From assembly GCF_004348665.1 (NCBI RefSeq), contig NZ_SMKM01000001.1:1-64000 (forward strand): a stretch of 64,000 nt of DNA, in the 5' to 3' direction. Both the position numbers and the translations under genes were made by a program. The stretch comes from Actinomadura sp. GC306. Its GTDB lineage: Bacteria; Actinomycetota; Actinomycetes; Streptosporangiales; Streptosporangiaceae. The notes under the pieces are model-generated. The model saw only the letters and a program-made list of their open reading frames with translations. It was not told where the DNA came from and searched no databases. Shown here piece by piece: positions 7,011 through 39,499 of this stretch (position 1 is its first letter; each line of letters opens with the position of its first letter).

Positions 7011-8666
7011 TCAGCGGTCGGCGCGCAGCAGCAGGGCCCCCGACGGGACGCCGCCCCCGGCGGAGACGACGGCGACGCGGGCGTCCGGGACCTGCCGGTC
7101 CCCGGCCTCGCCCCGCAGCTGCAGCATCGCCTCGCGGACGAAGCCGTAGCCGTGCGTCCGGCCCGCCGACAGCTGGCCGCCGTGGGTGTTGAGTGGCAGC
7201 CGCCCGCCGAGCGCGATGCCGCGGCCCTCGTCGATGAAGTCCCGGGCCTCGCCGAACTCGCAGAACCCGAGCGCCTCCAGCCACGACAGGGCGTTGAAGC
7301 TGAAGCCGTCGTACAGCTCGGCGACGTCGACGTCGGCGGGGCGCAGCGACGTGCGGCTCCACAGGTGCGCCGAGGGGCCGAGCGACTGCGGCAGGTGGGT
7401 GAGGGTGTCCTGGTCCCAGCTCAGCCGCTCGGTGATCTGGGTGCCGGCGGCCTCGACCAGGACGGCGGGCCGGGGCCGGTCCGCCGCGGTCTCCACGGCC
7501 GACACGACGACGGCGACCGCCCCGTCCACCGGCACGTCGCAGTCGTACAGGCCGAAGGGGGATGAGACCATCCGCGCGCCGAGGTAGTCGTCCATGGTCA
7601 TCGGGTCGCGGTAGACGGCCTCGGGGTTGCGGGCCGCGTTGCGGCGCGCGTTGATCGCGATCCAGCCGAGCGTCTCGCGGTCGTCCCCGTACCGGTGGAA
7701 GTAGTGCGACGCCTGGCAGGCGATCCAGTTGGCGGCGGACGCGGCGCCGAACGGGAGACGCCACTCCATCATTCCGGTCGCGGGCGCGTCCGGGACGTGC
7801 CACCGCCCGGAGCGGACCAGGGCGGCGTGGGACGACTCCCAGACCGTCCGGAAGCACAGCACGTGCCGGCACAGCCCGGCGGCGACCGCCAGCATCGCCG
7901 ACGTGATCGACCCGATCTGGCCGGGGGTGTCCGGCCCGCCGTTGACCCACGTCGGACGCAGGCGCAGCGCCTCCTCCAGGGCCATCACCCCGCCCTCCGA
8001 CATGCCCGCGCCGCCGGGACCGGGGTAGGTGGCCAGGCCGTCGATGTCGTCCGGGGCCAGGCCGGCGTCCTCGATCGCGGCCAGGCAGGCGTCCACGGTG
8101 AGCGAGAGGGGATCGACCATGAGGCGGCGGCCGACGGCGGACTGCCCGGCGCCGGTCAGGGCGACCGCGTCCTCGAACTTGCGGGCGCTCGCCATCGGAC
8201 GCGGCACCGGGCGGCGGGCGGGCGGCCCGGGGACGGGACCGGGCGCGGCCCGGCGCTCCGGGTCGGGCTCGAACAGCGGGACGTGGACATCGCCGGCCTT
8301 CTCGAACAGCACCCGCACCCGCATCCCCACGTGCACGTCGCCGGGGTCGCAGTTGACGATGTTCGTGGTCAGGCGCACGCCCTCGTCCTCGTCGAGGATG
8401 ACGATCGCGATGACGTAGGGCGGCGGGAAGCCGGGCAGCCACTGCTGGGCGTTCACGGTGAACCCCGCCACGACCGCCCGGCCGCTCACCGGCGTCATCG
8501 TCATGGCCGGGCTGCGGCAGGAACGGCAGCGCGGCAGCGGCGGGTGGGTGTAGGCCGAGCAGTCACCGCAGCGGGCGATGCGCAGCTCCCCGTCCGCGCC
8601 GGCGGTCCAGAAGTCCGCGCTGGCGAGTGTCGGCTGGGGCAACGGCCGCACCGTCGGTCCATCCAT
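7011..8666 (-). CDS. DUF35 (Zn-ribbon/OB-fold) - thiolase-fold fusion, probable Ltp2-like retro-aldolase
   Basis: A 551-residue fusion. Residues 1-131 are a DUF35 domain: zinc ribbon Cys33/Cys36/Cys47/Cys50, then an OB-fold. A Pro/Arg-rich linker spans 132-165. Residues 165-551 are a thiolase-fold lipid-transfer domain. The place of the thiolase nucleophile Cys reads GQIGSI, so biosynthetic or degradative thiolase chemistry is unlikely. Tyr452 (LYDGFSFN) and His495/His505 (THGGQLSAGRTHGYG) fit the Ltp2-like aldolase branch. In cholesterol degradation Ltp2 works with a separate DUF35 protein (ChsH2) to cleave a side-chain 3-hydroxyacyl-CoA; here the partners are joined. It is first in a minus-strand transcript with a near-leaderless promoter. 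Confidence 0.85.
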   Translation of the reverse strand: MDGPTVRPLPQPTLASADFWTAGADGELRIARCGDCSAYTHPPLPRCRSCRSPAMTMTPVSGRAVVAGFTVNAQQWLPGFPPPYVIAIVILDEDEGVRLTTNIVNCDPGDVHVGMRVRVLFEKAGDVHVPLFEPDPERRAAPGPVPGPPARRPVPRPMASARKFEDAVALTGAGQSAVGRRLMVDPLSLTVDACLAAIEDAGLAPDDIDGLATYPGPGGAGMSEGGVMALEEALRLRPTWVNGGPDTPGQIGSITSAMLAVAAGLCRHVLCFRTVWESSHAALVRSGRWHVPDAPATGMMEWRLPFGAASAANWIACQASHYFHRYGDDRETLGWIAINARRNAARNPEAVYRDPMTMDDYLGARMVSSPFGLYDCDVPVDGAVAVVVSAVETAADRPRPAVLVEAAGTQITERLSWDQDTLTHLPQSLGPSAHLWSRTSLRPADVDVAELYDGFSFNALSWLEALGFCEFGEARDFIDEGRGIALGGRLPLNTHGGQLSAGRTHGYGFVREAMLQLRGEAGDRQVPDARVAVVSAGGGVPSGALLLRADR

Positions 8667-8704
8667 GAGACCGAATTATAGTGTTCACAATTATCCGTAC
8701 TCAA
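8664..8704 (-). promoter_or_regulatory. Strong promoter of the aldolase operon, nearly leaderless
   Basis: Read on the minus strand: -35 TTGAGT (8704-8699), an 18-base spacer, then a perfect -10 TATAAT (8680-8675). The ATG of the aldolase fusion (8666-8664) starts only 8 bases after the -10, where transcription should begin, so the mRNA would be leaderless or almost so. No ribosome binding site is visible before this ATG. This AT-rich patch stands out sharply from the surrounding sequence. Confidence 0.75.
8675..8694. promoter_or_regulatory. Inverted-repeat operator candidate over the -10 of the aldolase promoter
   Basis: ATTATAGTGTTCACAATTAT is an imperfect palindrome (7 of 9 arm positions pair around a central TT). 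It overlaps the -10 box and spacer, a position suited to repression. Its minus-strand half TAATTGTG recurs at 15757-15764. The tandem GntR gene just upstream is the obvious candidate regulator; this is inference from position. Confidence 0.5.
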
Positions 8705-8763
8705 GGCCCGGCAACCAGTGACCTGCGTAATCAGTGGAAATAAGTGCGCTCAAAGGGGCCGGG

Positions 8764-10314
8764 TCAGTGTGCCAGGTGCCGTCGCATCCGGTACTGGGCC
8801 AGGCTGGCGTCGCCCGCCAGGACGGCGGCGAGGATCTCCCGGTGCTCCGTGCCGGTGTGGTCCCCGGCGCCGTGGCCGTCGCACCCTCCGGCCCGCCCGG
8901 TCCGGCGGGACAGCTCGGTGAGGATCCGCAGGAACAGCGTCAGGACGGGATTGCCGACCAGCTCGGCCAGGACGGCGTGGAAGTCCCGCTCGGCACCGCT
9001 CGCCGGCGGCCGTGCCGGAGGGTCACCGAGCGCCGCGAGCCTCGCCGCGACCGCCGGTTCCGCGCGCCGCGCGGCCAGCCGCGCGACGATGCCGACCTCG
9101 ATCGCCTCGCGCACGACCCGGAGGTCGTCGGCGGTGGCGTCCCGGTAGGCCAGGTAGAGCGCGGTGGCGTCGATGGCGGCCCGCGGCTCCTGCCGGGTCA
9201 CGACGAGGCCGCCGCCGGGACCGCGCCGGGACGTGGCGACCGAATGGTGCTCCAGCAGCCGGACCGCCGCGCGCAGCACGGCGCGGCTGGTGTCGTAGCG
9301 CTCCATCAGCTCGGCCTCGGAACCGAGCACCGCCCCGGCCTCCAGGCCGCCCCCGAGGATGTCCTCGTGGATCCGCACCGCGACCACCTCGGCGAGCGTG
9401 CGGCCGGCCGCGAGGCCCACCGGCACGGGCGCCAGCCGGACCGCCGGGCCCCCGCCGGCCCCGGCACCGCTCTCGCGGTCGCCGAGCGCGGCCTGGAACC
9501 ACTCGGTCACCTCGTCCAGGTGCTCGATCAGCCAGTGCTGGGCGCGCGGCGCGTCCCCCGCGATCGTGGCGTCGAGGATGCCGGCGTGGCGCCGGTGGGT
9601 GGTCTCCCTGAAACGGCGTACCCGGTCCTCGGTCATGGTCCCGGCCAGGGCCACGTAGCGGTAGGCGAGCTGTTCCAGGACGTCGATGAACAGCTGGAGC
9701 GCCGGGTTGCGGGTCATCTCGGCCAGGACGGTGTGGAACAGCTCGCCCGCCCACTCGCCGGCCTCCGGCGGGGACAGTTCCCCCGCGAGGGTCGCGCGGA
9801 GCCTCGTGATGCCCTCCTCGTCGATGCGCTCGGCGGCGAGCCTGCCGAGGACGGGTTCGATGAGGCGGCGGGCGAGCAGCACGTCCCGCAGCTCGGTGCC
9901 GACGTACTCGATGTAGACGACCATCGCCCGCACCGTCGGATCGGCGTCGGGGGCGCAGATCACGAGGCCGCCGCCGGGGCCGCGGCGCATCCGGGCGACC
10001 TGGTGGTGCTCCAGCAGCCGGGCCGCCTCGCGCAGCACGGCGCGGCTCACCCCGTACCGCTCGCGGAGCACCGGCTCGGAGTCGAGCACCTCCCCGACCG
10101 GCCAGCCCCGGGCGATCACCTCGGCCTCGATCAGCCGCGCGACCCGCGAGGCGAGCTTCTCCACCGAACCCGCGGCGCCCTGCCGGTCCGCCGGGCCGGA
10201 CGTCTCGTCCCGGCCCCGGCCGCCGGGCGCGGAGCCGCCGTTCGGGGAGCCCGGCGCCGGCCGGGGGCCCGCCCCGGTCACGGGCGGCTCGTCCCTGGCT
10301 TCCGCGGCGTCCAC
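8764..10314 (-). CDS. Tandem-duplicated FadR/GntR regulator (wHTH-FCD-wHTH-FCD)
   Basis: A 516-residue regulator that contains two full GntR-FadR units in one chain. An Ala/Gly/Pro-rich leader (1-50) is followed by a winged helix (about 52-118), an FCD-type helical domain (128-280), a linker, a second winged helix (305-372) and a second FCD (385-510). The wing motif RRGPGGGL occurs at 110-117 and again at 363-370. A normal FadR-type protein is 220-260 residues and dimerises; this one may act as a covalent dimer. It lies between its paralogue at 10373 and the aldolase promoter, in the same direction, and probably controls one or both ABC/aldolase transcripts. Confidence 0.88.
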   Translation of the reverse strand: MDAAEARDEPPVTGAGPRPAPGSPNGGSAPGGRGRDETSGPADRQGAAGSVEKLASRVARLIEAEVIARGWPVGEVLDSEPVLRERYGVSRAVLREAARLLEHHQVARMRRGPGGGLVICAPDADPTVRAMVVYIEYVGTELRDVLLARRLIEPVLGRLAAERIDEEGITRLRATLAGELSPPEAGEWAGELFHTVLAEMTRNPALQLFIDVLEQLAYRYVALAGTMTEDRVRRFRETTHRRHAGILDATIAGDAPRAQHWLIEHLDEVTEWFQAALGDRESGAGAGGGPAVRLAPVPVGLAAGRTLAEVVAVRIHEDILGGGLEAGAVLGSEAELMERYDTSRAVLRAAVRLLEHHSVATSRRGPGGGLVVTRQEPRAAIDATALYLAYRDATADDLRVVREAIEVGIVARLAARRAEPAVAARLAALGDPPARPPASGAERDFHAVLAELVGNPVLTLFLRILTELSRRTGRAGGCDGHGAGDHTGTEHREILAAVLAGDASLAQYRMRRHLAH

Positions 10315-10372
10315 GCTCCGATCTTAGGGAGTCGGCCGGCCCGGGAGATCCGGCTCCGCCGCGGCGCCCGGG

Positions 10373-11854
10373 TCACCACGCCTCGCAAGCGGCGAGGTCG
10401 CGGCGCATCCGGTACCGCGCCAGGCTCTCGTCCCCCGCGAGGATCGCGGCGACCACCTCCCGGTGCGCCCGTTCCCGCGCGGCCACGGCGGCCCCGTCGG
10501 CCGGGCCCGCGGGCCGGGCACCGTCCCCCCGCCCCCGCAGCTCGGCCAGGATCCGGACGAACAGCGTCAGCACGGGGTTCCCGGCGAGGTGGACCAGCTC
10601 GTCGTGGAAGGTCGCCGGGGGAGCGCCGTCCCACCGCGCCGGGCGGCCCCGCACCGCCGCCTCCAGCCGGCCGGCCGTCCCGGGGTCCTCGCGCCGCGCC
10701 GTGACCGGGCCCAGTGCGCCGAACTCGACCGCCTCGCGGACGGCGCGCAGGTCCTCGATCCCGGCGCGCCGGTAGCCGAGGTACAGGGCCATGGACTCGA
10801 TGCTGGCGGCCGGGTCCGGTGCGGTGACCAGCAGCCCGCCGCCGGGGCCGCGCCGCATCCGCGCGACGCCGTGGTGCTCCAGCAGCCGGACGGCCTCGCG
10901 CAGGACGGCGCGCCCGATGCCGTAGCGGTCCAGCAGGTCGGCCTCCGAGCCGAGCGACGTCCCGACCGGCCAGCCCGCCGCCGCGATCGTGTCCTGGATC
11001 CGGGCGGCGACGATCTCGCTGAGCTTGGCGCCGGGCGCCTCCAGCAACTGCCACGCGATCGGCCCCTCGGCGCCGGGACGGCTCTGCCTCATCCACTCGG
11101 CGGCCCCGTACAGGTGCTCGGTCAGCTCGGCGTAGGCGCGGGCCGTGTCCCCGGCGATGACCGCCTCGACGATGACCTTGTGACTGCGGCCGGCGAGTTC
11201 CTTGTTGCGCGTCGCCTCCGCCTTCGACGTGCGCCGCACCGTGTGCGCGTACCGGTCGGTGAGCCGCGTGAGCACCTCGGTGAAGGCGAGCAGCGCCGGG
11301 TTGCCGGACAGCTCGCAGAGCGCCGTGTGGATCAGGTCCTGGGACCAGAGGCCCGGCTCGGTGCGCCTCCTGGCCTCCTGCTCCAGCAGGCCCCGCAGCA
11401 GCGTGACGCCCTCCTCGGTGAGCCGTTCGGAGGCGAGCATGACCGCGCGTGTCTCCAGGAGCAGCCGGGCGTCGACGAGGTCGTCGACCGTGGTGCCCGC
11501 GTAGTCGAGGTAGGTGACCACCGCGCGGGCCGCGGGCGCCACGTCCGGGGCGGTCACGAACAGGCCGCCGCCGGGACCGCGCCGCATCCGCGCCACCCCG
11601 TGGTGCTCCACCAGCCGGACCGCCTCGCGGAGCACGGACTTGCTCACGCCGTACCGCTCCTGCAGGTCGTGCTCCGAACCGAGGTTGCGGCCGACCGGCC
11701 AGCCGTCCCGGACGATCCGGTCCTCGATCTGCTGGGCCACCCGCGCCCCCAGGGTCCCCGCGCGCACGCCGCCGCCCTCCGCGAGGGCGACGGGGAGGCG
11801 CGGGAGGGTGGTGGCGTCGCCGGCCGGCGGGACGTTCGCAGCGGGCGTCGCCAT
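10373..11854 (-). CDS. Tandem-duplicated FadR/GntR regulator (second copy)
   Basis: A 493-residue paralogue of the gene at 8764, built the same way: winged helix 1 (about 35-99), FCD 1 (108-255), winged helix 2 (277-342), FCD 2 (350-490). The wing motif RRGPGGGL sits at 91-98 and 334-341. The recognition helices (GVSKSVLREAVRL and GIGRAVLREAVRL) are closer to each other than to a typical single FadR. It starts at an ATG with GAGGAG about 11 bases upstream. It is 58 bases before the next regulator and 83 bases after livF on the same strand, so it may be co-transcribed with the Liv transporter genes. Confidence 0.88.
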   Translation of the reverse strand: MATPAANVPPAGDATTLPRLPVALAEGGGVRAGTLGARVAQQIEDRIVRDGWPVGRNLGSEHDLQERYGVSKSVLREAVRLVEHHGVARMRRGPGGGLFVTAPDVAPAARAVVTYLDYAGTTVDDLVDARLLLETRAVMLASERLTEEGVTLLRGLLEQEARRRTEPGLWSQDLIHTALCELSGNPALLAFTEVLTRLTDRYAHTVRRTSKAEATRNKELAGRSHKVIVEAVIAGDTARAYAELTEHLYGAAEWMRQSRPGAEGPIAWQLLEAPGAKLSEIVAARIQDTIAAAGWPVGTSLGSEADLLDRYGIGRAVLREAVRLLEHHGVARMRRGPGGGLLVTAPDPAASIESMALYLGYRRAGIEDLRAVREAVEFGALGPVTARREDPGTAGRLEAAVRGRPARWDGAPPATFHDELVHLAGNPVLTLFVRILAELRGRGDGARPAGPADGAAVAARERAHREVVAAILAGDESLARYRMRRDLAACEAW

Positions 11855-11937: not shown

Positions 11938-12660
11938 TCACGCCGTCGCGGCCTCCCCGAGGTAGTGGCGCAGCACCTCGTCCCCGGCGGCGGCCGCGGG
12001 CCCGGACCAGGCGACGCTTCCGCGCTGCAGGACGAGGCAGCGGTCGGCGAACTCCAGCGCCCGGTGCGCGAACTGCTCGATCATGATGATCGCCACACCC
12101 GCCGCCCGCGCCCGCTCCAGGCTTTCGAACACCACGTCCACCATGGTGGGCGCGAGGCCGAGCGACAGCTCGTCGGCGATCACCAGCCGCGGCGTGATCA
12201 TCAGGGCGCGGGCCAGGCCGAGCATCTGCTGCTCGCCGCCGGACAGCGTGCCGGCCCGCTGCCGGCGCCGTTGCGCGAGCACCGGGAACAGGGCGAACGC
12301 GCGGTCGATCGCGCCCTCCCGCTCGGCCCCGGCCGCGGTCAGCGCCATCCGCAGGTTCTCGTGGACGGTCAGGCCGGGGAAGACCCCGCGCCCCTCGGGC
12401 AGGTGGACCAGCCCGGCCCTGCGGACGGCGCTCGGGGACGCGGCCGTGATGTCCCGCCCGGCGAAGTCGACCCGTCCCGCGGCCGGCGGGACCAGGCCGC
12501 TGAGCGTGCGGGCGAGCGTGCTCTTCCCCGCCCCGTTCGCGCCGAGCACCGCCAGCGCGCCGTGCTCGGGGACGTCGAAGGACACCCCGGACAGCGCCAG
12601 GGCCGGACCGTAGCGGACCTCCAGGTCGTGGACCGACAGCAGCGGCGTGGTCGCGTTCAC
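11938..12660 (-). CDS. livF: Branched-chain-amino-acid-type ABC transporter ATPase (LivF-like)
   Basis: A 240-residue ATPase of a Liv/HAAT-type importer. Walker A is GANGAGKST, the signature is LSGGEQQML, and Walker B ends in VIADE. The ...GLAPTMVD and late LxRGxxxxSGxA motifs are typical of LivF. The GTG start at 12660 overlaps the livG stop (GTGA), so translation is coupled. With LivG it should power the fused LivHM permease. Liv-type systems in actinobacterial catabolic clusters often carry aromatic or short-chain acids rather than amino acids, so the ligand is not implied by the name. Confidence 0.92.
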   Translation of the reverse strand: MNATTPLLSVHDLEVRYGPALALSGVSFDVPEHGALAVLGANGAGKSTLARTLSGLVPPAAGRVDFAGRDITAASPSAVRRAGLVHLPEGRGVFPGLTVHENLRMALTAAGAEREGAIDRAFALFPVLAQRRRQRAGTLSGGEQQMLGLARALMITPRLVIADELSLGLAPTMVDVVFESLERARAAGVAIIMIEQFAHRALEFADRCLVLQRGSVAWSGPAAAAGDEVLRHYLGEAATA

Positions 12661-13520
12661 CGGCTCTCCTCCTCCTGGCCGCCCTCCTGGGCGGGGTCGG
12701 GCGGCGGCTCGGCCCCGAGGTAGGCGGCGCGCACGGCCGGGTCGGAGCGGATCTCCGCCGGCGGGCCCGTCCGGATCATCGCGCCGAAGTCGAGGACGTG
12801 GACCGTCTCGCACATGCCGAGGACCAGCTCGACGTCGTGCTCGACGAGCAGCAGCGAGACGCCGTGGTCGGCGTTGACGCGCCGGAGCGTCGCCGCGAGC
12901 TCCGCGGTCTCGCGGCCGTCCAGCCCGGACGTGGGCTCGTCCAGGAGGAGGACCTCCGGGCCGGTGGCCAGCGCCCGGGCGACCTCGACCAGCCGGCAGG
13001 CGCCGAGGGGCAGCCCCGACACCTCCCGGTCCTGCAGGTCCTCCAGGTGCAGCGATTCGATGATCGCCGCGACGCGCTCGTCCTCGGCGGCGCTCGGCCG
13101 CCGGAAGCCCCCGCCCGTCACCAGGTCGCGCAGGATGCCGCCGCCGCGGCGCCGCACGCGGTCGGCCAGCACGACGTGGTCGCGGACGGTCAGGCCGGCG
13201 AACAGCTCGGGGCGCTGGAAGGTCCGGGCGAGACCGCGCCGGGCCCGCGCGGCGGCGGAGGCGCGGGTGACGTCCTCGCCGCCCATGCGCACCCGCCCCG
13301 CGTCCGGCCTGAGCAGGCCGGACAGGACGGCGAACAGCGTGCTCTTGCCCGCGCCGTTCGGCCCGACGAGCCCGACCACCGCGCCGGGCGGGACCGCGAG
13401 GTCGACGCCGTCCAGGGCGACGAGCCCGCCGAAGCGCACCGTCACCCCGGACGCCTCCAGCCGGGCGGCCGCCCCGGGGGGACCGGCGGACGCGGGGGAG
13501 CCGGGGGCCACCGTGGTCAT
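12657..13520 (-). CDS. livG: Branched-chain-amino-acid-type ABC transporter ATPase (LivG-like)
   Basis: A 287-residue ATPase. Walker A GPNGAGKST and Walker B VLLLDEPTSGLD are intact. The signature region reads SGLPLGACRLVEVARAL; LivG proteins normally deviate from LSGGQ here (LPYGQQR-type), so this is not degeneration. A Pro/Ala-rich N-terminal leader of about 22 residues precedes the ABC domain. Both ends overlap neighbours by 4 bases (the permease upstream, livF downstream), which indicates one tightly coupled transcript. Confidence 0.92.
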   Translation of the reverse strand: MTTVAPGSPASAGPPGAAARLEASGVTVRFGGLVALDGVDLAVPPGAVVGLVGPNGAGKSTLFAVLSGLLRPDAGRVRMGGEDVTRASAAARARRGLARTFQRPELFAGLTVRDHVVLADRVRRRGGGILRDLVTGGGFRRPSAAEDERVAAIIESLHLEDLQDREVSGLPLGACRLVEVARALATGPEVLLLDEPTSGLDGRETAELAATLRRVNADHGVSLLLVEHDVELVLGMCETVHVLDFGAMIRTGPPAEIRSDPAVRAAYLGAEPPPDPAQEGGQEEESR

Positions 13521-15583
13521 GTGCGCTCACCGCCGGTCGGCTCGGATGCGGATGCGGACGCCGTGGCCGCGAGCGGCGCCGGCGGGAGGGGAGGGGCCGC
13601 GCGGCCGCGCGCCCAGCGGTCCGCGACGCCGCGCAGCTGCCGCGCGTGCATCGCGAGGACCCCGTCCGGGTCCTTCGCGACCATGATCGCGCCGAGGCCG
13701 AACAGCAGCACCGGCACGTCGGCCAGCCCGGTGGGCAGGTAGGTCTGGAACACCCCCGGCAGGAGATGGAAGCCCAGGCCCGCCACGAGCGCCGCGACGG
13801 GGGAGCGCGAGCCGATCGTGACCAGGACGGCGAGCCAGACCAGCCCGCCGAAGACGTTGTAGGAGTCGAGCATGGCGGCCTGCGCGCCCATGGCGAGGAA
13901 GCCGCCGCCGACGGCGGCGATGTAGGTCGCGATCGCCGACACCAGCAGCTTGGTCCGCACGATGCTGAGGCCCACGGTGCGCGCGCCGTCCTCGCTCCAG
14001 CGCACCGCGGCCATGGCCAGCCCGGCGGTCGAGCGCCGGAAGTTGACGATGGCCAGCGCGATGACCGCGAACGCGGCCAGCGTCAGGTAGGCGAACGCGC
14101 GGTCGTCCTCGGCGAAGCCGGGCCGGGGCATCGCGACGCCCTGCCCGTAGTTGTGGAAGCGGTCGCGGGTGAACACGAGGGTCTGGACGAGCAGCCCGAA
14201 CGTCAGCGTCACCAGCGCCACGTACAGGTCGCCGAGGCGGAGGGTGAGCAGCCCGATCACCACGCCCAGCACCACGACCGGCAGCGCGCCGAGGACGACC
14301 GCGGCCAGCGGATGCCAGCCGTGGGTGGTCGCCAGCTCGGCGGCGCCGAGCGCCCCGAGGCCCGCGAAGGTGATCTGGCAGAGCCAGATCATCCCGCCCT
14401 CACCGGTGGCGAGCGTGTACGACAGCAGGACCAGGCTCAGCGCCAGCCCGGACACGGCGAGACCGGCCCAGTACTCGTCCAGGACGAGCGGCAGCGCCGC
14501 GACGGCGACCAGCCCGGCGGCCTTCAGCATCGCCGACGGGCGCGAGCCCGCGAGCCCGCCCGCACGGGAGCCGGCACGCCGGCCCGCCCGCGGGCCGGTG
14601 CGGCCCGCGCCGTCGCCCTCGACCCGGATCGCCCGGTCGAGCGCCCCTCCGGAGGGCCCGTCGCCGACCCGCCCGCGCAGCGCGTAGTAGAGCAGGAAGA
14701 CCAGCATGAACCCGAACGGGATGCTCGGCACGATCTGCGCGGACAGCGCGCTCTCCGGGTCGAGGTAGCGCTGGACGACGGTGGTGAACACCCCCATCGC
14801 CAGCGCGGTGAGGACGGCGGCCGGCAGGTTCGTCAGCCGGGCCGCGACGACGGCCGCGAACGCGGCGGCCATGAGGTAGGTCATGCCGTCGGCCGACAGA
14901 CCCGCGGTGGGCGCGACGAGGATCCCGGCGAGCCCGGCCAGCGTGGTGGTCGTGGCCCAGACCCCGAGCGAGACCCGCGAGGCGTTCACCCCCGACAGCC
15001 CGCTCAGGGCCGCGGAGTCGACCATCGCGCGGACTCTGAGCCCGGCGTCGGTGAACCTCAGCACCGCCACGCCCGCGCCGAGGACGATCGCGAGCCCGAG
15101 GTAGTTCACGACCTGGTCCATGGTGACCGTGGCCCCGAAGGGGTGGAAGACCTTCAGCGGGACGGGCGCCAGCCCCGGCGCGGTCGTGTTGGGCAGCTTG
15201 CCGAAGACGAGGTCGACGGCCGGCGGCAGCGCCACCGACACGCCGATGGTGGCGACGATCTTGATCAGTGGCGGGCGCAGCAGCAGGTGGCGGAACAGCA
15301 GCCAGTAGAGCAGCGCGCCGAGCGCGGGCGCGAAGACCCCGAGCGACGCCGCCGCGGCGGCCGCGATCGGCCACCCGTTCTCGGTGTGCAGGAAGTAGTA
15401 GAACCGGGCGACCGAGAAGGCCATCGCCCCGAAGGCGAAGTTGAAGACGCCGGAGGAGGCGTAGGTGACGACGAGCGACGCCGAGGCGATCGCGTAGATC
15501 GCGCCCAGCGCCAGACCGGCGAGGACGTATTGCAGCACGGGCACCGTCCATGGGCTGCGACCGGATGCGGCGAACGGGGTCAC
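13517..15583 (-). CDS. Fused LivH-LivM ABC permease
   Basis: A 688-residue membrane protein joining both permease subunits of a Liv-type importer. Residues 1 to about 305 are LivH-like (LQYVLAGLALGAIYAI start, about 8 membrane segments). A Gly/Ala/Arg-rich linker of about 45 residues follows (GRRAGSRAGGLAGSRP). Residues about 350-650 are LivM-like, including the GLYDLYVALVTLTFG-type region (here GDLYVALVTLTFG) and the EDGARTVG cytoplasmic loop that meets the ATPases. The GTG start has no clear ribosome binding site and a start nearer the first membrane segment is possible. The binding protein is divergent at 15873. Confidence 0.9.
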   Translation of the reverse strand: MTPFAASGRSPWTVPVLQYVLAGLALGAIYAIASASLVVTYASSGVFNFAFGAMAFSVARFYYFLHTENGWPIAAAAAASLGVFAPALGALLYWLLFRHLLLRPPLIKIVATIGVSVALPPAVDLVFGKLPNTTAPGLAPVPLKVFHPFGATVTMDQVVNYLGLAIVLGAGVAVLRFTDAGLRVRAMVDSAALSGLSGVNASRVSLGVWATTTTLAGLAGILVAPTAGLSADGMTYLMAAAFAAVVAARLTNLPAAVLTALAMGVFTTVVQRYLDPESALSAQIVPSIPFGFMLVFLLYYALRGRVGDGPSGGALDRAIRVEGDGAGRTGPRAGRRAGSRAGGLAGSRPSAMLKAAGLVAVAALPLVLDEYWAGLAVSGLALSLVLLSYTLATGEGGMIWLCQITFAGLGALGAAELATTHGWHPLAAVVLGALPVVVLGVVIGLLTLRLGDLYVALVTLTFGLLVQTLVFTRDRFHNYGQGVAMPRPGFAEDDRAFAYLTLAAFAVIALAIVNFRRSTAGLAMAAVRWSEDGARTVGLSIVRTKLLVSAIATYIAAVGGGFLAMGAQAAMLDSYNVFGGLVWLAVLVTIGSRSPVAALVAGLGFHLLPGVFQTYLPTGLADVPVLLFGLGAIMVAKDPDGVLAMHARQLRGVADRWARGRAAPPLPPAPLAATASASASEPTGGERT

Positions 15584-15872
15584 GGCGATGTGACCACCAT
15601 CACCATGGCCTCATATACCGTGCACTTAGTTACCCATGTCCGTCAAGAGAGGAATCCGATTCGGCTCGGGTGGTGCCGCGAGATCTCCTGCTCCTGCCCA
15701 GAGCCGAAGGTGATCATGGAAGGTCCAGGTAACGCTTGTGTTGCGGCCTCTCGCTTTAATTGTGCGCATTAAGTTTACTTAGCTAGCTAGGTCCACCCGG
15801 CTAGCCCCGCCCGGTCCCGGAAACGCGGGCCCCGCGGCCGCCGGCCGGCGTCCCGTCCGAAAGGGAAGACCC
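15584..15872. other. Divergent control region between livHM and the binding-protein gene
   Basis: These 289 bases contain no convincing gene. They are AT-rich in two places. A minus-strand TTGACG (15646-15641) and TATATG (15617-15612) could be promoter boxes for livHM, but the 23-base spacing is too long. Near the binding-protein side is a palindrome at 15756-15772 and a GCTAGCTAGG run. Two diverging transcripts must start here. Confidence 0.6.
15756..15772. promoter_or_regulatory. Operator candidate TTAAT-N7-ATTAA
   Basis: TTAATTGTGCGCATTAA has perfect 5-base outer arms. It shares TAATTGTGNNCANTA (all 12 defined bases) with the minus strand of the aldolase promoter at 8694-8680. It lies about 100 bases before the binding-protein ATG. 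The repeat in two promoters flanking the two tandem GntR genes suggests a common regulator. Confidence 0.5.
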
Positions 15873-17117
15873 ATGCCAAGGACCAGACCTCTCGCCGCCG
15901 CGGGCGCCGCCTGCGCCCTCCTGCTGTCCGCGACGGCATGCGGCGGCGAAGACTCCGCGACCGGCGGATCCACCGCGAAGATCGGCGTCCTGACGTCGGT
16001 GAGCGGCTCGGCCAGCGCCGGCTTCACCGGCGTCGAGGCCGGGGTGAAGGCCCGCCTCGCCGCCTACAAGGACGAGCCCGGCGCCTGCGAGCGCGACTTC
16101 GAGGTCGTGACCGCCGACGACGCCTCCACGCCCCAGGGCGCGCTGGCCGCGACCCAGAAGCTCGTCCGCCAGGACGACGTCTTCGCCGTGCTTCCGAACA
16201 GCTCCTTCTTCTTCGGCGCCGGCCAGTTCGCCGGCACCCAGGCGAAGGGGACGCCGTTCGTGGGAGCGGGCTTCGACGGCGGCAAGCAGTGGCTGAACGA
16301 GGACTACCGCAACCTGTTCAACACCCTCGGCAACACCGACTACGAGAAGGTCGCCTCGACGATGGGCGCCTACTGGAAGGACCTCGGCGGCACCAAGGCG
16401 GCCACGGTGAGCTTCGACACCGCGAGCTCGTCCGGCGCGGCGCTGGCGAGCGTCCAGTCCGCGGAGCACGCCGGCCTGGAACGGGGCTACGTCAACGTCA
16501 AGGTGCCCTTCGGCAGCAAGGACGTCGGCCCGCTCGTCCTCGGCATCAAGAACTCCGGCGCCGACGTGCTGTACCTCCCGGTCACGCCCGAGACGGCCTT
16601 CGCCATCGTGGGCGGCCTCAAGCAGGCGGGCGTCGAGCTGAAGTCCGTCCTCCTGGCCACCGGGTACGGCGCCGACCTGCTGAAGTCCGAGCCCGCCGTG
16701 CAGGCGGCCCAGGGGCTCGGCTTCATCACCAACACCGCCCCGATCGGGGTGCCGACGCCGGGCGGCACGGCGATGCGGGACGGCGTCAAGAAGCACACCG
16801 GTGGGACCACCGACCTGCCGAGCTTCTCGGAGAGCATCGGGTGGGTGAGCGCCGACCTGCTGCTGCACGGGTTCAAGAAGGCGGGCTGCGACGCCACCCA
16901 GGAGGAGTTCATCGACGCGCTCCGCAAGAGCACCGACTGGGACGCGGGCGGCATGGTGCCCAAGCCGATCGACTTCTCCGACTACGGCGCCATCGCGGGC
17001 AGCCACGCGTCCGGCAACTGCTTCTTCGTCTCGATCCTGAAGGGCAAGGAGTTCGTCCCGGACCCGAAGGCCAAGCCCGTCTGCGGGACCCTGCTCGACG
17101 AGCCGGTCAAGCGCTGA
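15873..17117 (+). CDS. Liv-type ABC transporter solute-binding lipoprotein
   Basis: A 414-residue extracellular binding protein. Residues 1-22 are a lipoprotein signal with lipobox LSATAC; Cys23 would be lipidated and anchor it in the membrane. The mature part is a type I periplasmic-binding fold (KIGVLTSVSG start, GAAL..TQKLV, two Rossmann lobes), as in LivJ/LivK and the aromatic-acid binding proteins. GGGAAG precedes the ATG. It diverges from the livHM-livG-livF operon and completes that importer. The ligand is unknown. Confidence 0.92.
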   Translation: MPRTRPLAAAGAACALLLSATACGGEDSATGGSTAKIGVLTSVSGSASAGFTGVEAGVKARLAAYKDEPGACERDFEVVTADDASTPQGALAATQKLVRQDDVFAVLPNSSFFFGAGQFAGTQAKGTPFVGAGFDGGKQWLNEDYRNLFNTLGNTDYEKVASTMGAYWKDLGGTKAATVSFDTASSSGAALASVQSAEHAGLERGYVNVKVPFGSKDVGPLVLGIKNSGADVLYLPVTPETAFAIVGGLKQAGVELKSVLLATGYGADLLKSEPAVQAAQGLGFITNTAPIGVPTPGGTAMRDGVKKHTGGTTDLPSFSESIGWVSADLLLHGFKKAGCDATQEEFIDALRKSTDWDAGGMVPKPIDFSDYGAIAGSHASGNCFFVSILKGKEFVPDPKAKPVCGTLLDEPVKR

Positions 17118-22183: not shown

Positions 22184-22473
22184 CTCGGCTCCTCGGCACG
22201 CGTATGGGATGCAGTGCCCAGGATCGTACGACTCCGATGTCCATTTGGGTAGTCTCAATTAGCTATCTCGTTGAGTCGGCTCCGCATCCGCCGTCCGGCT
22301 CCGGCGACCGGGGGCCGCGGGTGGACACGGCCGCCCCAGTGTCGACCTTGATGCATTACAGGCCCTCCTGTATCGAATTTTTCGGCGGGGGCGCCCGATG
22401 CCTTCCGTGGACCCGGACTGGTTGTTACCCTCCGAGCAGTAGATCGACAGAGTGCACACAATAGGCGGGAACC
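22184..22473. other. Divergent control region between P450 and CoA-transferase operons
   Basis: No gene seen in these 290 bases. On the P450 side, CTCAA (22253) and TTGAG (about 13 bases later) form a spaced inverted repeat in an AT-rich patch. On the CoA-transferase side TTGATG at 22349-22354, a 17-base spacer and TATCGA (22372) make a weak promoter candidate. Confidence 0.5.
22357..22372. promoter_or_regulatory. Palindrome TACAGG-N4-CCTGTA
   Basis: A perfect 6-base inverted repeat with a 4-base loop falls within the spacer of the weak promoter candidate before the CoA-transferase. The position suits an operator. The regulator is unknown. Confidence 0.35.
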
Positions 22474-23703
22474 ATGCACCGACCGATGGAGGGCGTGCGC
22501 GTCCTGGAGGTCGCCCAGTTCACCTTCGTCCCGGCCGCGGGCGCGGTGCTGGCGGACTGGGGAGCCGACATCATCAAGATCGAGCACGCCGAGCGGGGTG
22601 ACGCGCAGCGCGGCCTCATCCGGGTGCTCGGGCTGGACGCCCGCGGCGGCGGCTCGTTCTTCCCGATCATGGAGGGGCCGAACCGCGGCAAGCGCAGCGT
22701 CGGCCTGGCCCTGGAGAACCCGGCGGCCCGGCCGGTGCTGGAGCGGCTCGTCCGCGAGAGCGACGTGTTCCTGACCAACTTCCTGCCCGGCGCCCGCGCC
22801 CGGCTGGGCATCGAGGTCGAGGACATCCGGGCGATCAACCCCGACATCATCTACGTGCGCGGCAGCGGGTTCGGCCAGAGCGGCGACGAGGCGGACAAGG
22901 GCGGGTACGACAGCACCGCGTTCTGGGCCCGCGGCGGCAGCGCGGCGGGCGTCACCCCGCCGGACGCGGACACGGTGATGCGCCAGCCCACGGGCGCCTA
23001 CGGCGACTCCATCGGCGGCATGACGATCGCGGGCGGGATCGCGGCCGCCCTGTACTCCCGCAAGGCCACCGGCGAGCCGTCGGTGGTGGACGTGTCGCTG
23101 CTCGGCGTCGGCGCCTGGGCCACCCAGTTCTCCGTCAACATGGCCCTCGCGCTCGGCGGGCCGCTGCCCCGGTTCCCGCAGCCCAAACACGGATCGGCGA
23201 CCAATCCGCTGATCGGCGCCTACCGCACCGCCGACGGGCGCTGGCTGGAACTGGCGATGCTGCAGCCCGGCCGGTACTGGCCCGAGTTCTGCGCCGTCGC
23301 CGGACGCGAGGACCTGATCTCCGACGAGCGCTTCGACGGGGTCGAGAACATCATGCGGAACGCCGCCGAGGCGAGCGAGATCGTGGCGGAGCTCATCGCG
23401 GCGCGCGACTACGCCGAATGGGTCGAGCTCCTCAAGGGGACCAGCGGCCAGTGGGCCCTCGTGCAGGAGCCGTGGGACGTGGCGCAGGACCCGTCGCTGC
23501 GGGCCAACGGCCTCATCGCCCCGCTGGAGGACGCCGACGGCGTACAGCGCGAGCTGGTCGCCAGCCCGGTCCAGTTCGACGAGACCCCGGTGGAGATCCG
23601 CCGCGCCCCGCAGTTCGCGGAGCACACCGACGAGGTGCTGCGCGAGCTGGGCTGGAGCGAGGAGGAGCTGATCCAGCTCAAGATCGACGGAGCCGTGACC
23701 TGA
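22474..23703 (+). CDS. Class III (CaiB/BaiF-type) CoA-transferase
   Basis: A 409-residue enzyme that moves CoA from a donor thioester to a carboxylate through an aspartyl-CoA anhydride. Asp146 in GGYDSTAFWARGG aligns with the catalytic Asp of formyl-CoA transferase. The N-terminal LEVAQFTFVPAAGAVLADWGAD and the GDDSIGG-like glycine loop (YGDSIGGMT) are typical. It begins a plus-strand operon with a ligase and an ACAD, giving a second, ATP-free route to activate the substrate or to recycle CoA from product. It may also act as a racemase, since alpha-methylacyl-CoA racemases share the fold; the catalytic Asp context favours transferase. Confidence 0.88.
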   Translation: MHRPMEGVRVLEVAQFTFVPAAGAVLADWGADIIKIEHAERGDAQRGLIRVLGLDARGGGSFFPIMEGPNRGKRSVGLALENPAARPVLERLVRESDVFLTNFLPGARARLGIEVEDIRAINPDIIYVRGSGFGQSGDEADKGGYDSTAFWARGGSAAGVTPPDADTVMRQPTGAYGDSIGGMTIAGGIAAALYSRKATGEPSVVDVSLLGVGAWATQFSVNMALALGGPLPRFPQPKHGSATNPLIGAYRTADGRWLELAMLQPGRYWPEFCAVAGREDLISDERFDGVENIMRNAAEASEIVAELIAARDYAEWVELLKGTSGQWALVQEPWDVAQDPSLRANGLIAPLEDADGVQRELVASPVQFDETPVEIRRAPQFAEHTDEVLRELGWSEEELIQLKIDGAVT

Positions 23704-26387: not shown

Positions 26388-27179
26388 TCAGTCGAGGATG
26401 TCGATCACGGAGGTGGCCTCCCGCCCGCGGAGGACCAGTTCGTCGGCCACCTGGAGGTGCCGGTGCCAGAAACGTTCGGCGGCGGGCCCGTCGCCGGCCC
26501 GGACGAGCGTGACGAGCTTCGCGTAGGCGCGGAGGGCGCGGGGGTAGTCGCCGTGCGCACCGGTCGCCTCGTGGGCGCGGACCGACGCCTGGGTCTGCCG
26601 CAGGATGATCTCGTGCACCATCCCCGCCATCAGCGCGAGCGTCCGGTTGCCGGACAGCTCGACGAGCCGCAGGTGGAAGCGCGCGCTGTCGACCGCGAAC
26701 CGCTCGTAGTCGGTGACCGAGGCGCGCGCGTTGTCCAGCTCCTCCTCCAGGGCCGCGTACCGCTCGTCGTCACCGCTGAGGGCGAGCAGCCGGGCCGCGG
26801 GCGGCTCGATCGCGCTGCGCGCCTGGTACACGTCGCCGAGCGTGGCCTTGCCGAGCTGGAGCAGGAGCGAGGCGGGCCGGGCGACCGCCTCCGGGCCGGG
26901 CAGGGTCACCCGGGCGCCGGTGCGGGAGCCGCGGCGCAGCTCGATCAGCCCCTCGGACTCCAGCACCCGGAACGCCTCGCGGAGCGTGGGGCGGGAGACC
27001 CCGAAGTGCTCCATGAGCGTGGCCTCGTTGGGCAGGAAGTCGCCCTCGGTGAGGGAGCCCTCCACGATGCGGCGCCGCAGCCGGCGCGCCACCAGCTCGC
27101 CGGTCTTGGGGGCGCGGACCCCGCCGCCCCGGCCGCCCGCGGGCAGGCCGTGCCGTGTCCCCGAGTCCGGCAGTGCCAT
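26388..27179 (-). CDS. Single-unit FadR/GntR transcriptional regulator
   Basis: A 263-residue regulator of the usual size: winged helix about residues 22-90 (recognition helix VSRPTLREAFRVLE) and FCD domain about 105-255, in which Asp/His positions (for example HLRLVELSGN) would bind a metal and an acyl or organic-acid ligand. The ATG at 27179 has GGGGAG about 9 bases upstream; longer in-frame starts lack this. It is divergent from the ACAD at 27287 and convergent with the ACAD at 26327, so it probably controls the transcript starting at 27287 and its own. It differs clearly from the three tandem regulators. Confidence 0.88.
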   Translation of the reverse strand: MALPDSGTRHGLPAGGRGGGVRAPKTGELVARRLRRRIVEGSLTEGDFLPNEATLMEHFGVSRPTLREAFRVLESEGLIELRRGSRTGARVTLPGPEAVARPASLLLQLGKATLGDVYQARSAIEPPAARLLALSGDDERYAALEEELDNARASVTDYERFAVDSARFHLRLVELSGNRTLALMAGMVHEIILRQTQASVRAHEATGAHGDYPRALRAYAKLVTLVRAGDGPAAERFWHRHLQVADELVLRGREATSVIDILD

Positions 27180-27236
27180 CGACGATCGCTCCCCGTGCGG
27201 TTGGTGAATCATGACTGACCAGCCGTTCAAGATTAG

Positions 27237-31969: not shown

Positions 31970-33394
31970 TCAGGGCTCCAGCGCCCGGAGGTGCCGGCTC
32001 ATCCGATGCCGGGCCAGACTCACGTCGCCCGCCAGCACCGCGTCGGCGATCTTCTCGTGGACCGCCGCCTCCGCCGCCGACTCCGCCCCGGCCTCGCCGG
32101 GGACGCGGATCAGGCTGAGCTCCGCCAGCACGGCGGTGAACAGCGCCAGCAGCCGGTTGCGGCTCAGCCGCGCCAGCGCCGCGTGCACCTCCACGGCCGC
32201 GGCCGCGGGCGGGGCCGCGGGGTCGAGCTCGCGGCCGAGGGCGGCCTTGAGGTCGGCGGTGTCGCCGTGCGGGGCGAGGGCGGCGGCCAGCTCGACCGCC
32301 TTGAGCTCGACGGCCGTCCGCACCTCGAACACGTCACCGGGCTCGACCTGCAGGTAGCGCAGGTACAGGGCGAGCGCGTCGACGACCCGGGCCGGGTCGG
32401 GGGCCTGGACGACGAGCCCGCCGCCGGGGCCCTGCCGCATGCGGGCGACGCCGTTGTGCTCCAGGATCCGCACGGCCTCCCGGAACACGGCCCGGCTGAC
32501 CTCCAGCTCCTCGCACAGGCTCGCCTCGTTGCCGAGCACCTCGCCGGTGGGCCAGCCGCGCCGCCGGATCTCCTGGCGGACCAGCAGCGCCACCTTCTCC
32601 GGGAGCTTGCCCCCGATGGCCCCGATGACCGGCCCCGCGAGCTGCTCGGCGAGTGACTCGGCGGGCTCGCCGGGCGGCCGCGCGCGCTCCGCGGCCTGCG
32701 CCTCGCGCACCCGGTCCAGCCAGGCGCGCTCGCCGTCTAGCTGGCTGCGCACGCGCCGCTCGGCCTTGACCTCGTCGCCCGAGACGATCGCCTCCGCGAT
32801 GGCCGGGAGCGCCCGCCGGCGGGCGCCGGCCGCCTTCTCGCCCAGCCGGTACCCGTCGGCGGGGACGCCGGCGAGGGCGCCGGTCACCCGGGTGAGCGTC
32901 GGGATGAAGATCGAGAGCACCGGGTTGTGCGTCGCCTGGGCGATCGCGACGCTCAGCGGGCGGTCGACGCGGTCGTCGGCGGCGACCGCGCGCAGGTGGG
33001 CGATGTCCTCCTCGCCGATCCGCCGCGCGGCCAGCCGCGCGGCGAGCACCTCCAGGGTGCTGCGGGCCTCGTACAGCTCGCCGACCGACACGTCCGCGAA
33101 GTGGAAGAACGCGGCCACCGCCTCGGCGACGACCGCGCCGGCCGGGGCCCGCACCACGAGGCCGCCGCCGCGGCCGCGGCGCATCGCCGCGACCTGCTTG
33201 TACTCCAGGATGCTGATCGCCTCGCGCACCACGGCGCGGGAGACACCGTAGCGCTCGATCAGCCGCGCCTCGGAGCCGATCGCCGCACCGACCGGCCAGC
33301 CGCGCTCGACGATCTCGTCCTCGATGCGCCGGGCCACGTGCTCGGCGAGCTTGCGCCGGGGCGCGGCGGGGGACGGCTGCGACGGCGCGGTCAA
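31970..33394 (-). CDS. Tandem-duplicated FadR/GntR regulator (third copy)
   Basis: A 474-residue regulator with two GntR-FadR units: winged helix 1 (about 14-80), FCD 1 (90-230), winged helix 2 (264-328), FCD 2 (335-470). The wing motif is RRGRGGGL at 72-79 and RQGPGGGL at 320-327. The N-terminal leader is much shorter than in the two copies at 8.8-11.9 kb. It is divergent from the crotonase that begins the 15-gene catabolic/transport run and convergent with the third ligase, so the long run is its likely target. Confidence 0.88.
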   Translation of the reverse strand: MTAPSQPSPAAPRRKLAEHVARRIEDEIVERGWPVGAAIGSEARLIERYGVSRAVVREAISILEYKQVAAMRRGRGGGLVVRAPAGAVVAEAVAAFFHFADVSVGELYEARSTLEVLAARLAARRIGEEDIAHLRAVAADDRVDRPLSVAIAQATHNPVLSIFIPTLTRVTGALAGVPADGYRLGEKAAGARRRALPAIAEAIVSGDEVKAERRVRSQLDGERAWLDRVREAQAAERARPPGEPAESLAEQLAGPVIGAIGGKLPEKVALLVRQEIRRRGWPTGEVLGNEASLCEELEVSRAVFREAVRILEHNGVARMRQGPGGGLVVQAPDPARVVDALALYLRYLQVEPGDVFEVRTAVELKAVELAAALAPHGDTADLKAALGRELDPAAPPAAAAVEVHAALARLSRNRLLALFTAVLAELSLIRVPGEAGAESAAEAAVHEKIADAVLAGDVSLARHRMSRHLRALEP

Positions 33395-36600: not shown

Positions 36601-37538
36601 GGACCGTGGTCATCCGGCTGGCCGCGCTGCTCCCGCTGGTCTTCCTCGTCTCGACCGCGGTGTTCTTCCTCGGCCAGCTCTCCGACATCGACCCCGCGGA
36701 GAACATCGTCGGGCCGGAGGCGACCGAGGAGCAGGTCGCCGCCGTCCGGCGCGACCTCGGGCTGGACCGCCCCGCCATGGAGCAGTACTCCGACTGGCTG
36801 TCCGGCGCCGTGCGCGGCGACCTCGGCGAGTCGGTCTACACCAGGGCGGACGTGTCGGCCTCGCTGCTGCAGGCGCTGCCGGTGACCCTGTCGCTCACCT
36901 TCGGCGGGCTGCTGGTCGGGCTGCTGCTCGGGGTGCCGTCCGGGATCTGGAGCGCGCTGCGGGCGGGCCGCGCGGGGGACCGGGCGATCAGCCTGTTCGC
37001 CACCGTCGGCCAGGCCGTGCCGGGCTTCTGGCTGGGCCTGCTGCTGATCTTCGCGTTCGCGATCCAGCTGCCCTGGTTCCCCTCGGTCGGCTACGTCGCG
37101 ATCGACCAGAGCCTCACCGGCTGGCTGCGCAGCCTGGTGCTGCCCTCGGTCTCGCTCGGGCTGGTCGCCGCGGCCGCGATCTCGCGGCAGACCCGCTCCA
37201 GCATGATCGGCGTCCTGCAGCAGGAGTACGTGCGCACGGCGCTCAGCAAGGGCCTGTCCAAGCGGCGCGTGGTGGTCAAGCACGCGCTGAAGAACGCCGC
37301 GGTGCCCATCGTGACGGTGGTGTCGTTCCAGGTCACCTCGCTGCTCGGCGGATCGATCGTGATCGAGCGGCTGTTCGCCATGCCGGGCTTCGGGCAGCTG
37401 GCCATCGACGCGGTGCTGCGCCGCGACCCGGACGTCATCCAGGGCATCGTCGTGCTCACGGTGATCATCGTCGTGCTGGTCAACGTGCTGCTCGACCTCT
37501 CGTACGCGTGGCTCAACCCGAAGGTGCGTGCGCTGTGA
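36594..37538 (+). CDS. Oligopeptide-type ABC transporter permease (OppB/DppB-like)
   Basis: A 314-residue membrane protein with about six segments. Start GTG at 36594 overlaps the synthetase stop by 7 bases. It has the DPP-type N-terminal segment, then the EYVRTALSKGLSKRRVVVKHALKNA loop, the EAA motif that contacts the ATPase. Subfamily members carry peptides, nickel or other solutes. It starts a four-gene importer embedded in the acyl-CoA operon, ending with a 4-base overlap with the OppC-OppD fusion. Confidence 0.92.
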   Translation: MLRTVVIRLAALLPLVFLVSTAVFFLGQLSDIDPAENIVGPEATEEQVAAVRRDLGLDRPAMEQYSDWLSGAVRGDLGESVYTRADVSASLLQALPVTLSLTFGGLLVGLLLGVPSGIWSALRAGRAGDRAISLFATVGQAVPGFWLGLLLIFAFAIQLPWFPSVGYVAIDQSLTGWLRSLVLPSVSLGLVAAAAISRQTRSSMIGVLQQEYVRTALSKGLSKRRVVVKHALKNAAVPIVTVVSFQVTSLLGGSIVIERLFAMPGFGQLAIDAVLRRDPDVIQGIVVLTVIIVVLVNVLLDLSYAWLNPKVRAL

Positions 37539-39499
37539 GCGCCGCGCAGGCCGCGGGCGCCCGGTTCACCGCCCGGCTGCTGCGCTCCAGGACGACGCTG
37601 TTCTGGGCCGGGATCGTCGGGGCCGTCGTGCTCTGCGCCGTCCTCGCCCCCGTCATCGCGCCGTACGACCCGCTCGACGGCGACGTCAGGGAGGGGCTGC
37701 TCGGCCCGTCCGGCGACCACTGGCTCGGCACCGACAAGCTCGGCCGCGACGTCTTCTCGCGGATCGTGTACGGCGCGCAGGTCGCGCTCCTCGCGGGCGC
37801 CGAGGCCGTCGGGATCGCGGCGGCCATCGGCATCCCGCTCGGGCTGCTGTCCGGCTACGCCGGCGGCTGGACCGACCGGATCCTGATGCGGATCGTCGAG
37901 GGCGTCATGTCGGTGCCGTTCCTGGTGCTGGCCATCGCGCTGATCTCGGTGCTGGGCCCGGGGCTGTGGAAGTCCATGGCCGTCGTCGGCGTGGTGTTCG
38001 CGATGACGCTGATGCGCCTCACCCGGGGCGAGACGCTCGCCGCCCGGGAGGAGCTGTACGTCGACGGGGCACGGGTCGTCGGCGCCGGCGCGCCGCGGAT
38101 CCTGTTCCGGCACATCCTGCCGAACATCACGCCGCCGCTGATCGTCCAGGTCACGCTCATGATCGCCGGTGCGATCATCGCGGAGGCGACGCTGTCGTTC
38201 CTCGGGCTCGGCGCGCAGGCCGGCCACGCGAGCTGGGGCTCGATGCTGGCGGACGCGCAGGAGAGCATCCGGCAGAGCTTCTTCCTCACGCTGCCGCCCG
38301 GCATCGCCATCCTGGTCACCGTCCTGGCGTTCAACCAGGTCGGCGACGGGGTGCGGGACCTCTTCGCCCGCGAGGCCAAGGCCGGGACGCTGGGCGTCAA
38401 CCCGGTGCACCGCGGCGGGAAGGGCGACGCCCCGGCCGCGACCGCGGCGGAGCCGCCCGCCGGGACGGCGGTTCCGGACCCGCTGCTGAGCGTCCGCGAC
38501 CTCACCGTGTCGTTCCCGCAGCCGGCCGGCGGCCGGGTGACCGTCGTGCAGGGCGTGTCCCTGGACGTGGGCAAGGGCGAGATCCTCGGGCTGGTCGGCG
38601 AGTCCGGGAGCGGCAAGAGCGTCACCGCGATGTCGCTGCTCGGCCTCGTCCCCGACCCCGGGCGGGTCGCCGCCGCCAGCGTCCGGCTGGACGGCCGGGA
38701 GCTGACCGGGCTGCCGTTCGACGAGCTCCGCAAGGTGCGCGGCCGGGAGATCGGCGTGGTGTTCCAGGAGCCGATCGCCAGCCTGAACCCGGCCTACACG
38801 GTCGGCGACCAGGTCGCGGAGGTCCTGCGCGAGCACGCCGGGCTGCCCCGGGAGCGGGCGCGCGGTCGGGTGATCGAGCTGTTCGAGCAGGTGCACATCC
38901 CGAACCCCGCCGACCGGCTCGGCGACTACCCGCACCAGTTCTCCGGCGGCATGGCGCAGCGCGTGATGATCGCGATGGCGCTGGCCTGCGGGCCCCGGCT
39001 GCTCGTCGCCGACGAACCCACCACCGCCCTGGACGTCACCGTCCAGGGGCAGGTGCTCGACCTGCTGCTGGAGCTGCGCGAGCAGACCGGGATGTCCATC
39101 CTGCTGATCACCCACGACCTCGGCGTCGTCGCGGACGTGGCCGACCGGGTCGCGGTGATGTACGCCGGGCAGCTGGTGGAGTGCGGGCCCACCGAGGAGG
39201 TCTTCCGGAAACCGGCCCACCCCTACACCGAGGGGCTGCTCGCGTCCCTGCCGCGCAACGTGCGGCGGACGGGCCGGCTGCCCTCGATCCCCGGCGTCGT
39301 CCCGGCGCCGGACGCCTGGCCCGCGGGCTGCCATTTCGCGGACCGCTGCCCGCACGCCCGGCCCGAGTGCACCGCGGGGCCGATCGACCTGGCCGCCGTC
39401 GCGGGCGGCGGCCGTGCCACCCGATGCGTCCGCGCGGGCGAGCTGGCCCTGACCGGGGTCGGCGGCACCGGCGCGGTGCAGATTGCGAAGAAGCCATGA
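37535..39499 (+). CDS. Fused OppC permease - OppD ATPase
   Basis: A 654-residue fusion of the second permease and the first ATPase. Residues 1 to about 290 are OppC-like: a membrane segment near 20-45, then [18 protein letters not shown] and the EAA loop [28 protein letters not shown] Gly/Ala linker spans about 290-320. Residues about 322-654 are OppD-like: Walker [10 protein letters not shown], signature FSGGMAQRV, Walker [13 protein letters not shown], and the C-terminal cysteine region ([14 protein letters not shown]) that marks the Opp/Dpp ATPases and can bind an iron-sulfur cluster. GTG overlaps the upstream stop by 4 bases. The frame is continuous, with no sign of an error at the joint. 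Confidence 0.9.

Follow-up and report, generated by a model that had tools for sequence, protein, structure and literature searches.

Genes A and B, which lie next to each other in the 64-kb stretch of the Actinomadura sp. GC306 genome analysed here (the window), encode real regulators with two complete winged-helix (wHTH) plus FCD units in each chain. The two proteins belong to a scattered and apparently undescribed family of actinobacterial GntR regulators of the FadR subfamily, here called double because of their two units, and it is probable that each of them acts as a covalent pseudo-dimer repressor, which would grip a palindromic operator symmetrically while carrying two diverged effector pockets. 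GntR/FadR proteins are among the largest families of bacterial regulators, and their characterised members are one-unit chains that dimerise. It is the covalent two-unit architecture that is new here; the candidate operator follows a grammar already known.

When scored alone, all four halves of A and B exceeded the Pfam gathering cut-offs for both domains (32.0-38.8 bits for GntR, PF00392, with a cut-off of 27 bits; 37.5-64.5 bits for FCD, PF07729, with a cut-off of 24.3 bits), which bears out the two full units per protein proposed in the first-pass annotation of this region. The spacing of 240-250 residues given there for the wing motif RRGPGGG was also recovered: the motif is found at residues 90 and 333 in B and at residues 109 and 362 in A, i.e. 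243 and 253 residues apart, respectively. Profile comparison, which might have left a single real DNA-binding domain, found two per chain, and the coding signal in third-position GC backs both genes. A gene fusion caused by sequencing error was considered and set aside, since there is no stop between the units and the architecture is kept in ~40 proteins; the possibility of tandem paralogues misread as one ORF was considered for A and B and dropped. With two units per chain in these ~40 proteins, the family departs from the classical FadR-type homodimer, which has one wHTH-FCD unit per chain. The corresponding halves of A and B are 47% (N-N) and 53% (C-C) identical, compared with 38-41% between N and C halves (41% within a chain), which places the duplication of the unit before that of the gene. 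A genome search for FCD revealed a third two-headed gene, C, in the same window, the product of which is 40-44% identical to B. The N unit of C displays an atypical wing (RRGRGGG) and lacks the FCD histidines at the usual places, and a scan of the promoter of C with the operator matrix described below gave no match. The same catabolic cluster also contains a single-headed FCD regulator at 26391-27212. The A-B pair is flanked, as had been annotated, by transport and aldolase-like genes: a branched-chain-type (liv) ABC transporter at one end and a thiolase/aldolase-like protein at the other (Table 1).

Table 1. Regulators, predicted target genes and candidate operators in the window.
Feature	Position	Strand	Details
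Regulator A, two-headed	8764-10314	minus	516 aa, GTG start
A, wHTH-N	9973-10155	minus	
A, FCD-N	9514-9885	minus	
A, wHTH-C	9214-9393	minus	
A, FCD-C	8770-9126	minus	
Regulator B, two-headed	10373-11854	minus	493 aa, ATG start
B, wHTH-N	11570-11746	minus	
B, FCD-N	11111-11482	minus	
B, wHTH-C	10841-11020	minus	
B, FCD-C	10391-10753	minus	
Regulator C, two-headed	31970-33394	minus	474 aa, TTG start uncertain
Predicted target	7011-8666	minus	ChsH2-type OB/zinc-ribbon fused to thiolase-like (aldolase-like) protein
Predicted target	11938-15583	minus	liv-type ABC transporter, two ATPases and fused permease
Predicted target	15873-17117	plus	substrate-binding protein of liv-type transporter (Peripla_BP_6)
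Predicted target	22486-23703	plus	family III CoA-transferase
Candidate operator 1	8675-8692		A-type, TATnGTGnnCACnATA; inside -35/-10 (TTGAGT-18-TATAAT) of thiolase gene
Candidate operator 2	8738-8755		AAATAAGTGCGCTCAAAG; 80 bp upstream of thiolase start; conserved in A. livida and Actinomadura sp. 7K507
Candidate operator 3	15614-15631		AACTAAGTGCACGGTATA (minus strand); 39 bp upstream of liv permease start; conserved in A. livida and Actinomadura sp. 7K507
Candidate operator 4	15767-15784		CATTAAGTTTACTTAGCT; 98 bp upstream of binding-protein gene
Candidate operator 5	22446-22463		GACAGAGTGCACACAATA; 32 bp upstream of CoA-transferase gene

A search of the accessible literature found no description of a doubled GntR/FCD regulator and no known well-studied family with the two-headed architecture. 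The host genome comprises 7.08 Mb in 554 contigs, and the closest named relatives of B are encoded by Actinomadura livida (84% identity) and Actinomadura sp. 7K507 (79%), in both of which the A-B pair occurs in the same gene order. Full-length two-headed relatives are present in 8 genomes, including that of the host, of a 200-genome sample of the family, and in about 20 of 395 genomes of the class, mainly in a Mycobacterium-like (g71) and a Frankia-like (g101) genus. One further relative was found outside the class, in a genome from another class of the same phylum (G1010), and two plasmids, one of Streptomyces sp. NBC_00080 and the other pRHL2 of R. jostii, carry one two-headed gene each. Forty two-headed proteins were kept after removal of duplicates, one of which (L025) is a weak outlier. 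The linkers between the units are 10-29 residues long in most members and reach 82 residues in the Frankia-like ones.

In a tree of 109 units, comprising N heads, C heads and single-headed relatives that are located near the base (L017, L061, L092 and L093), 33 core C heads grouped on a single branch (SH-aLRT 98). The N heads also clustered, and lineages branched among them in the same pattern. Head labels change 6 times on the tree compared with 51 times in shuffles. A constraint joining all C heads was not rejected (AU p 0.54) and had a higher likelihood, with a few long-branch members remaining unplaced. The separate branches of N and C heads are consistent with one old duplication, and the scenario that appears to fit best is that the wHTH-FCD unit was duplicated once within a single gene and that the two heads were inherited jointly thereafter.

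The equivalents of the DNA-contact residues E34, R45, R49, E50 and G66 of FadR (PMC4494728) are 89-100% conserved in both heads of the ~40 proteins. Since both heads share these residues and the arms of the palindromic candidate operator are equally conserved when oriented by transcription, the asymmetric operators envisaged in the first-pass annotation find no support. On average, the winged helices of the N and C heads of one protein are 59% identical (64-67% for the same head between proteins), whereas the FCD domains of the two heads share only 28% identity (40-41% between proteins), as would be expected if symmetric DNA reading were combined with diverged sensing. Because the FCD domains have diverged to this extent while the winged helices have not, two different effector pockets per chain are plausible. 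In both heads, three histidines of the FCD domain are conserved at 79-92%, albeit the third is replaced by Asp in the C-terminal FCD of B. The Asp expected four residues ahead of the first of these histidines lacks conservation in the family; the combination of Asp and three His that characterises the metal-binding FCD subgroup (TM0439, CGL2915 type) is thus not found.

AlphaFold (AF2) models, built from alignments of only seven sequences, had all units folded in both B (mean pLDDT 78.4, pTM 0.75) and A (mean pLDDT 74.6, pTM 0.70), with helical FCD domains in each. The PDB matches of the units were FadR-subfamily proteins: the N unit of B matched Streptococcus GntR (6az6; Z 16.9, rmsd 2.5, 202 residues) and CGL2915 of C. 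glutamicum (Z 15.4, rmsd 4.3, 222 residues), and the C unit of A matched NanR in complex with DNA (6wfq; Z 12.4, rmsd 6.6, 201 residues). Judging from the pTM values, the two halves of the chain are placed in a defined way relative to each other, which we read as an intramolecular pseudo-dimer, the packing of the FCD domains being inferred from pTM. The covalent dimer postulated earlier is made likely by the FadR fold of each unit, the whole-chain pTM values and the palindromic candidate site.

Comparison of promoters alone yielded a motif with the core AGTnnACT, in which GT and AC are 2 nt apart, a spacing that represents a known class among FadR-subfamily sites (PMC4494728). The family-wide candidate operator, learned from Mycobacterium-like promoters, is the palindrome AAnnAGTnnACTnnTT. 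In all seven Mycobacterium-like loci the thiolase promoter beside the two-headed gene contains AATACAGTACACTCWATT (W = T or A), and searches of these 5-7-Mb genomes for AATANAGTNNACTNTATT with at most one mismatch retrieved the thiolase-promoter site as the sole match or, in one genome, as one of two; the nearby FadE promoter carries another version, of the ATTAAGTACACTCTTTA type. It took an alignment of these promoters to bring out the motif: a first palindrome scan with strict arms produced only scattered matches, and the signals from a blind count of dyads were mixed, the CRP-like GTGA-N6-TCAC among them. Fourteen Mycobacterium-like sites, drawn from the thiolase and FadE promoters of 7/7 genomes, were used to build a matrix, which was scanned against 339 kb of other two-headed loci, where the motif recurs ahead of catabolic genes. 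The scan resulted in 41 matches above 9 bits, 39 of them intergenic, with intergenic sequence making up 10.6% of the bases; column-shuffled matrices gave a mean of 2.6 matches and a maximum of 15 in 200 shuffles. Two held-out plasmid loci contained six matches of at least 9.0 bits, all intergenic and including the own promoters of both two-headed genes (shuffled matrices: mean 0.24, maximum 4 in 500). In control single-headed loci there were 4 matches in 14.8 kb of intergenic sequence versus 38 in 35.9 kb at two-headed loci (Fisher p 0.003), and two of the control matches were at single-headed relatives (L018 and L093). The sites precede start codons by a median of 36 bp. What ties the motif to the two-headed regulators is co-occurrence; part of its conservation reflects shared promoter ancestry, and there is overlap between the matrix and AT-rich elements of promoters. 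One further operator-like site (L124:16995, contig C210 of G000) is located between the gene for a 718-aa FadE-like acyl-CoA dehydrogenase and a divergent gene for a 263-aa protein; this region holds a single-headed FCD match, possibly a single-headed relative with the same operator grammar.

The window contains exactly five matrix matches above 7.5 bits, all in promoters, whereas 352 kb from other parts of the host genome gave three (p = 0.003). Candidate operator 1 is the sole match with at most one mismatch in the whole genome and is kept in A. livida, Actinomadura sp. 7K507 and G067; its position inside a promoter is that which a repressor would be expected to occupy. For candidate operator 4, TAAGTnnACTTA is exact in all three Actinomadura genomes, and the same site as candidate operator 5 precedes the orthologous CoA-transferase gene in L071 (position 183). 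The stretches 8660-8710 and 15740-15780, which had been singled out for footprinting, contain, wholly or nearly, candidate operators 1 and 4, found independently. The thiolase-like product of 7011-8666 resembles lipid-transfer/aldolase proteins, and genes for relatives of this product are also next to two-headed genes in the Mycobacterium-like loci; a single homology group of such genes is present in 13 of the 23 clustered two-headed loci. Targets in other two-headed loci include acyl-CoA dehydrogenases, SDRs and an amidohydrolase. The proteins probably read one symmetric site ahead of genes for the breakdown of fatty or steroid-like compounds; our guess is that the substrate is hydrophobic and side-chain-bearing, steroid- or terpenoid-like. 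Fused genes recur in this cluster: in addition to the ChsH2 OB-thiolase fusion, the transporter genes at 13520-15583 and 37535-39496 (688 and 654 aa, respectively) look like fused subunits.

Taken as a pseudo-dimer, one chain would most likely fold upon itself with its two FCD domains packed together, so that two near-identical winged helices could grip both arms of one palindrome. Since the sites overlap promoters and lie close to start codons, the protein most likely represses operons for uptake and for catabolism of the acyl-CoA type, the predicted repressed genes encoding the thiolase/aldolase-like protein, acyl-CoA dehydrogenase, CoA-transferase and liv transporter and, in some genomes, the regulator itself; a pathway metabolite would release it from the operator. 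FadR-subfamily proteins with a single unit form dimers as a rule, and three dimers of NanR are reported to bind its repeat operator (PMC8012715), which raises the unlikely alternative that chains pair through their FCD domains into a four-headed particle bridging two operators, by looping or in cooperative pairs. Such a particle would suit the paired sites of the thiolase promoter (8675/8738, with 63 bp between centres) and of the liv promoter (15614/15767, with 153 bp), but site pairs are not general, there being one site per thiolase and FadE promoter in the Mycobacterium-like loci, and the pair spacings vary (63, 97 and 153 bp). That the palindrome is the site of another regulator or a promoter element, and that the two-headed proteins bind elsewhere, appears improbable: although the sites overlap -10 regions (8666-8710) and the catabolic clusters hold further regulators (TetR, single FCD), the enrichment over column-shuffled matrices, the equal arms, the sites at the own promoters of two-headed genes in held-out loci and a GT-N2-AC grammar typical of the FadR subfamily all argue against it.

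Regulator A might be a special case. The C heads of A-type proteins are altered, with RAA for REA and TSRR for RMRR, and candidate operator 1 has the variant core GTGnnCAC, which is present at the thiolase promoter in 4/4 genomes with A and absent from G048 and G103, which lack A; in G140, also without A, it occurs once, away from the thiolase promoter. A link between this variant and the altered C head is tentatively suggested by these sequences. There is, however, little likelihood that the heads read different half-sites or operators, given that the family-wide motif is palindromic with equal arms, the A-type site itself is nearly so (9/10 pairs in G067), and the correlation between A and its site is confounded by shared ancestry. 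Least of all do we expect DNA binding to be confined to one head, with the other turned into a dimerisation or sensing module; the A-type C heads have lost the Glu equivalent to FadR E50 and B lacks the third His noted above, but the contact residues and operator arms are conserved on both sides. The pseudo-dimer repressor might further be a single-chain FadR 'heterodimer', in which two effector pockets and one symmetric grip integrate two metabolites on one operator, a possibility that we regard as less likely than not.

The proteins share with the FadR subfamily (E. coli FadR, LldR, PdhR, NanR) the wHTH-FCD unit, its fold and DNA-contact residues, a palindromic GT-Nx-AC operator (a candidate one here) and a link to acyl-CoA or carboxylate metabolism; the characterised members have one unit per chain, whereas here two are joined in one chain of 470-520 aa. 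We take the subfamily groups with GT-N2-AC sites to be single-headed. Their operator spacing is the same, while flanks and regulated pathways differ (PMC4494728). In R. jostii RHA1, WP_011600154.1 (~477 aa) can be aligned with 88% of B, and a candidate operator is located at its own promoter. The gene order of the Mycobacterium-like loci is NrdI, NrdH, Pol IV, SDR, TetR, P450, two-headed gene, thiolase, FadE, LigB and CstA, and presumably the neighbourhood of M. tuberculosis Rv3060c matches it (NrdH, Pol IV, P450, FadE, LigB, CstA). Rv3060c, listed in the literature as an uncharacterised FadR-type regulator, is thus probably a member of the family, its two-headedness being deduced from gene order only. 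It adjoins cyp136 (PMC13192937), and its M. smegmatis ortholog is given as 254 aa (PMC2018728). The peptide TYGASGMPSR (PMC5017210), used as a test for Rv3060c, had no match in 396 genomes of the Mycobacterium-like genus. Two other features of the Mycobacterium-like loci are a palindrome, ACTTGAC-N4-GTCAAGT, between divergent TetR and P450 genes (L080:5476, L082:14169), which lies close to the two-headed gene and may be an operator for TetR, and a MEDS sensory domain joined to HATPase_c_2 directly downstream of that gene (L080:8318-9319).

With both halves in one gene, each can evolve and be mutated separately, which renders symmetric DNA reading and asymmetric ligand sensing directly dissectable. 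The predicted operator and targets provide testable functions for uncharacterised regulators in Actinomadura, Rhodococcus and mycobacteria, the probable M. tuberculosis member being situated beside fadE22 and cyp136. If the heterodimer reading were true, a substrate and a downstream acyl-CoA, for example, could be read together, a logic that a homodimer cannot encode and that would have been kept in several actinobacterial lineages, probably including M. tuberculosis with its Rv3060c.
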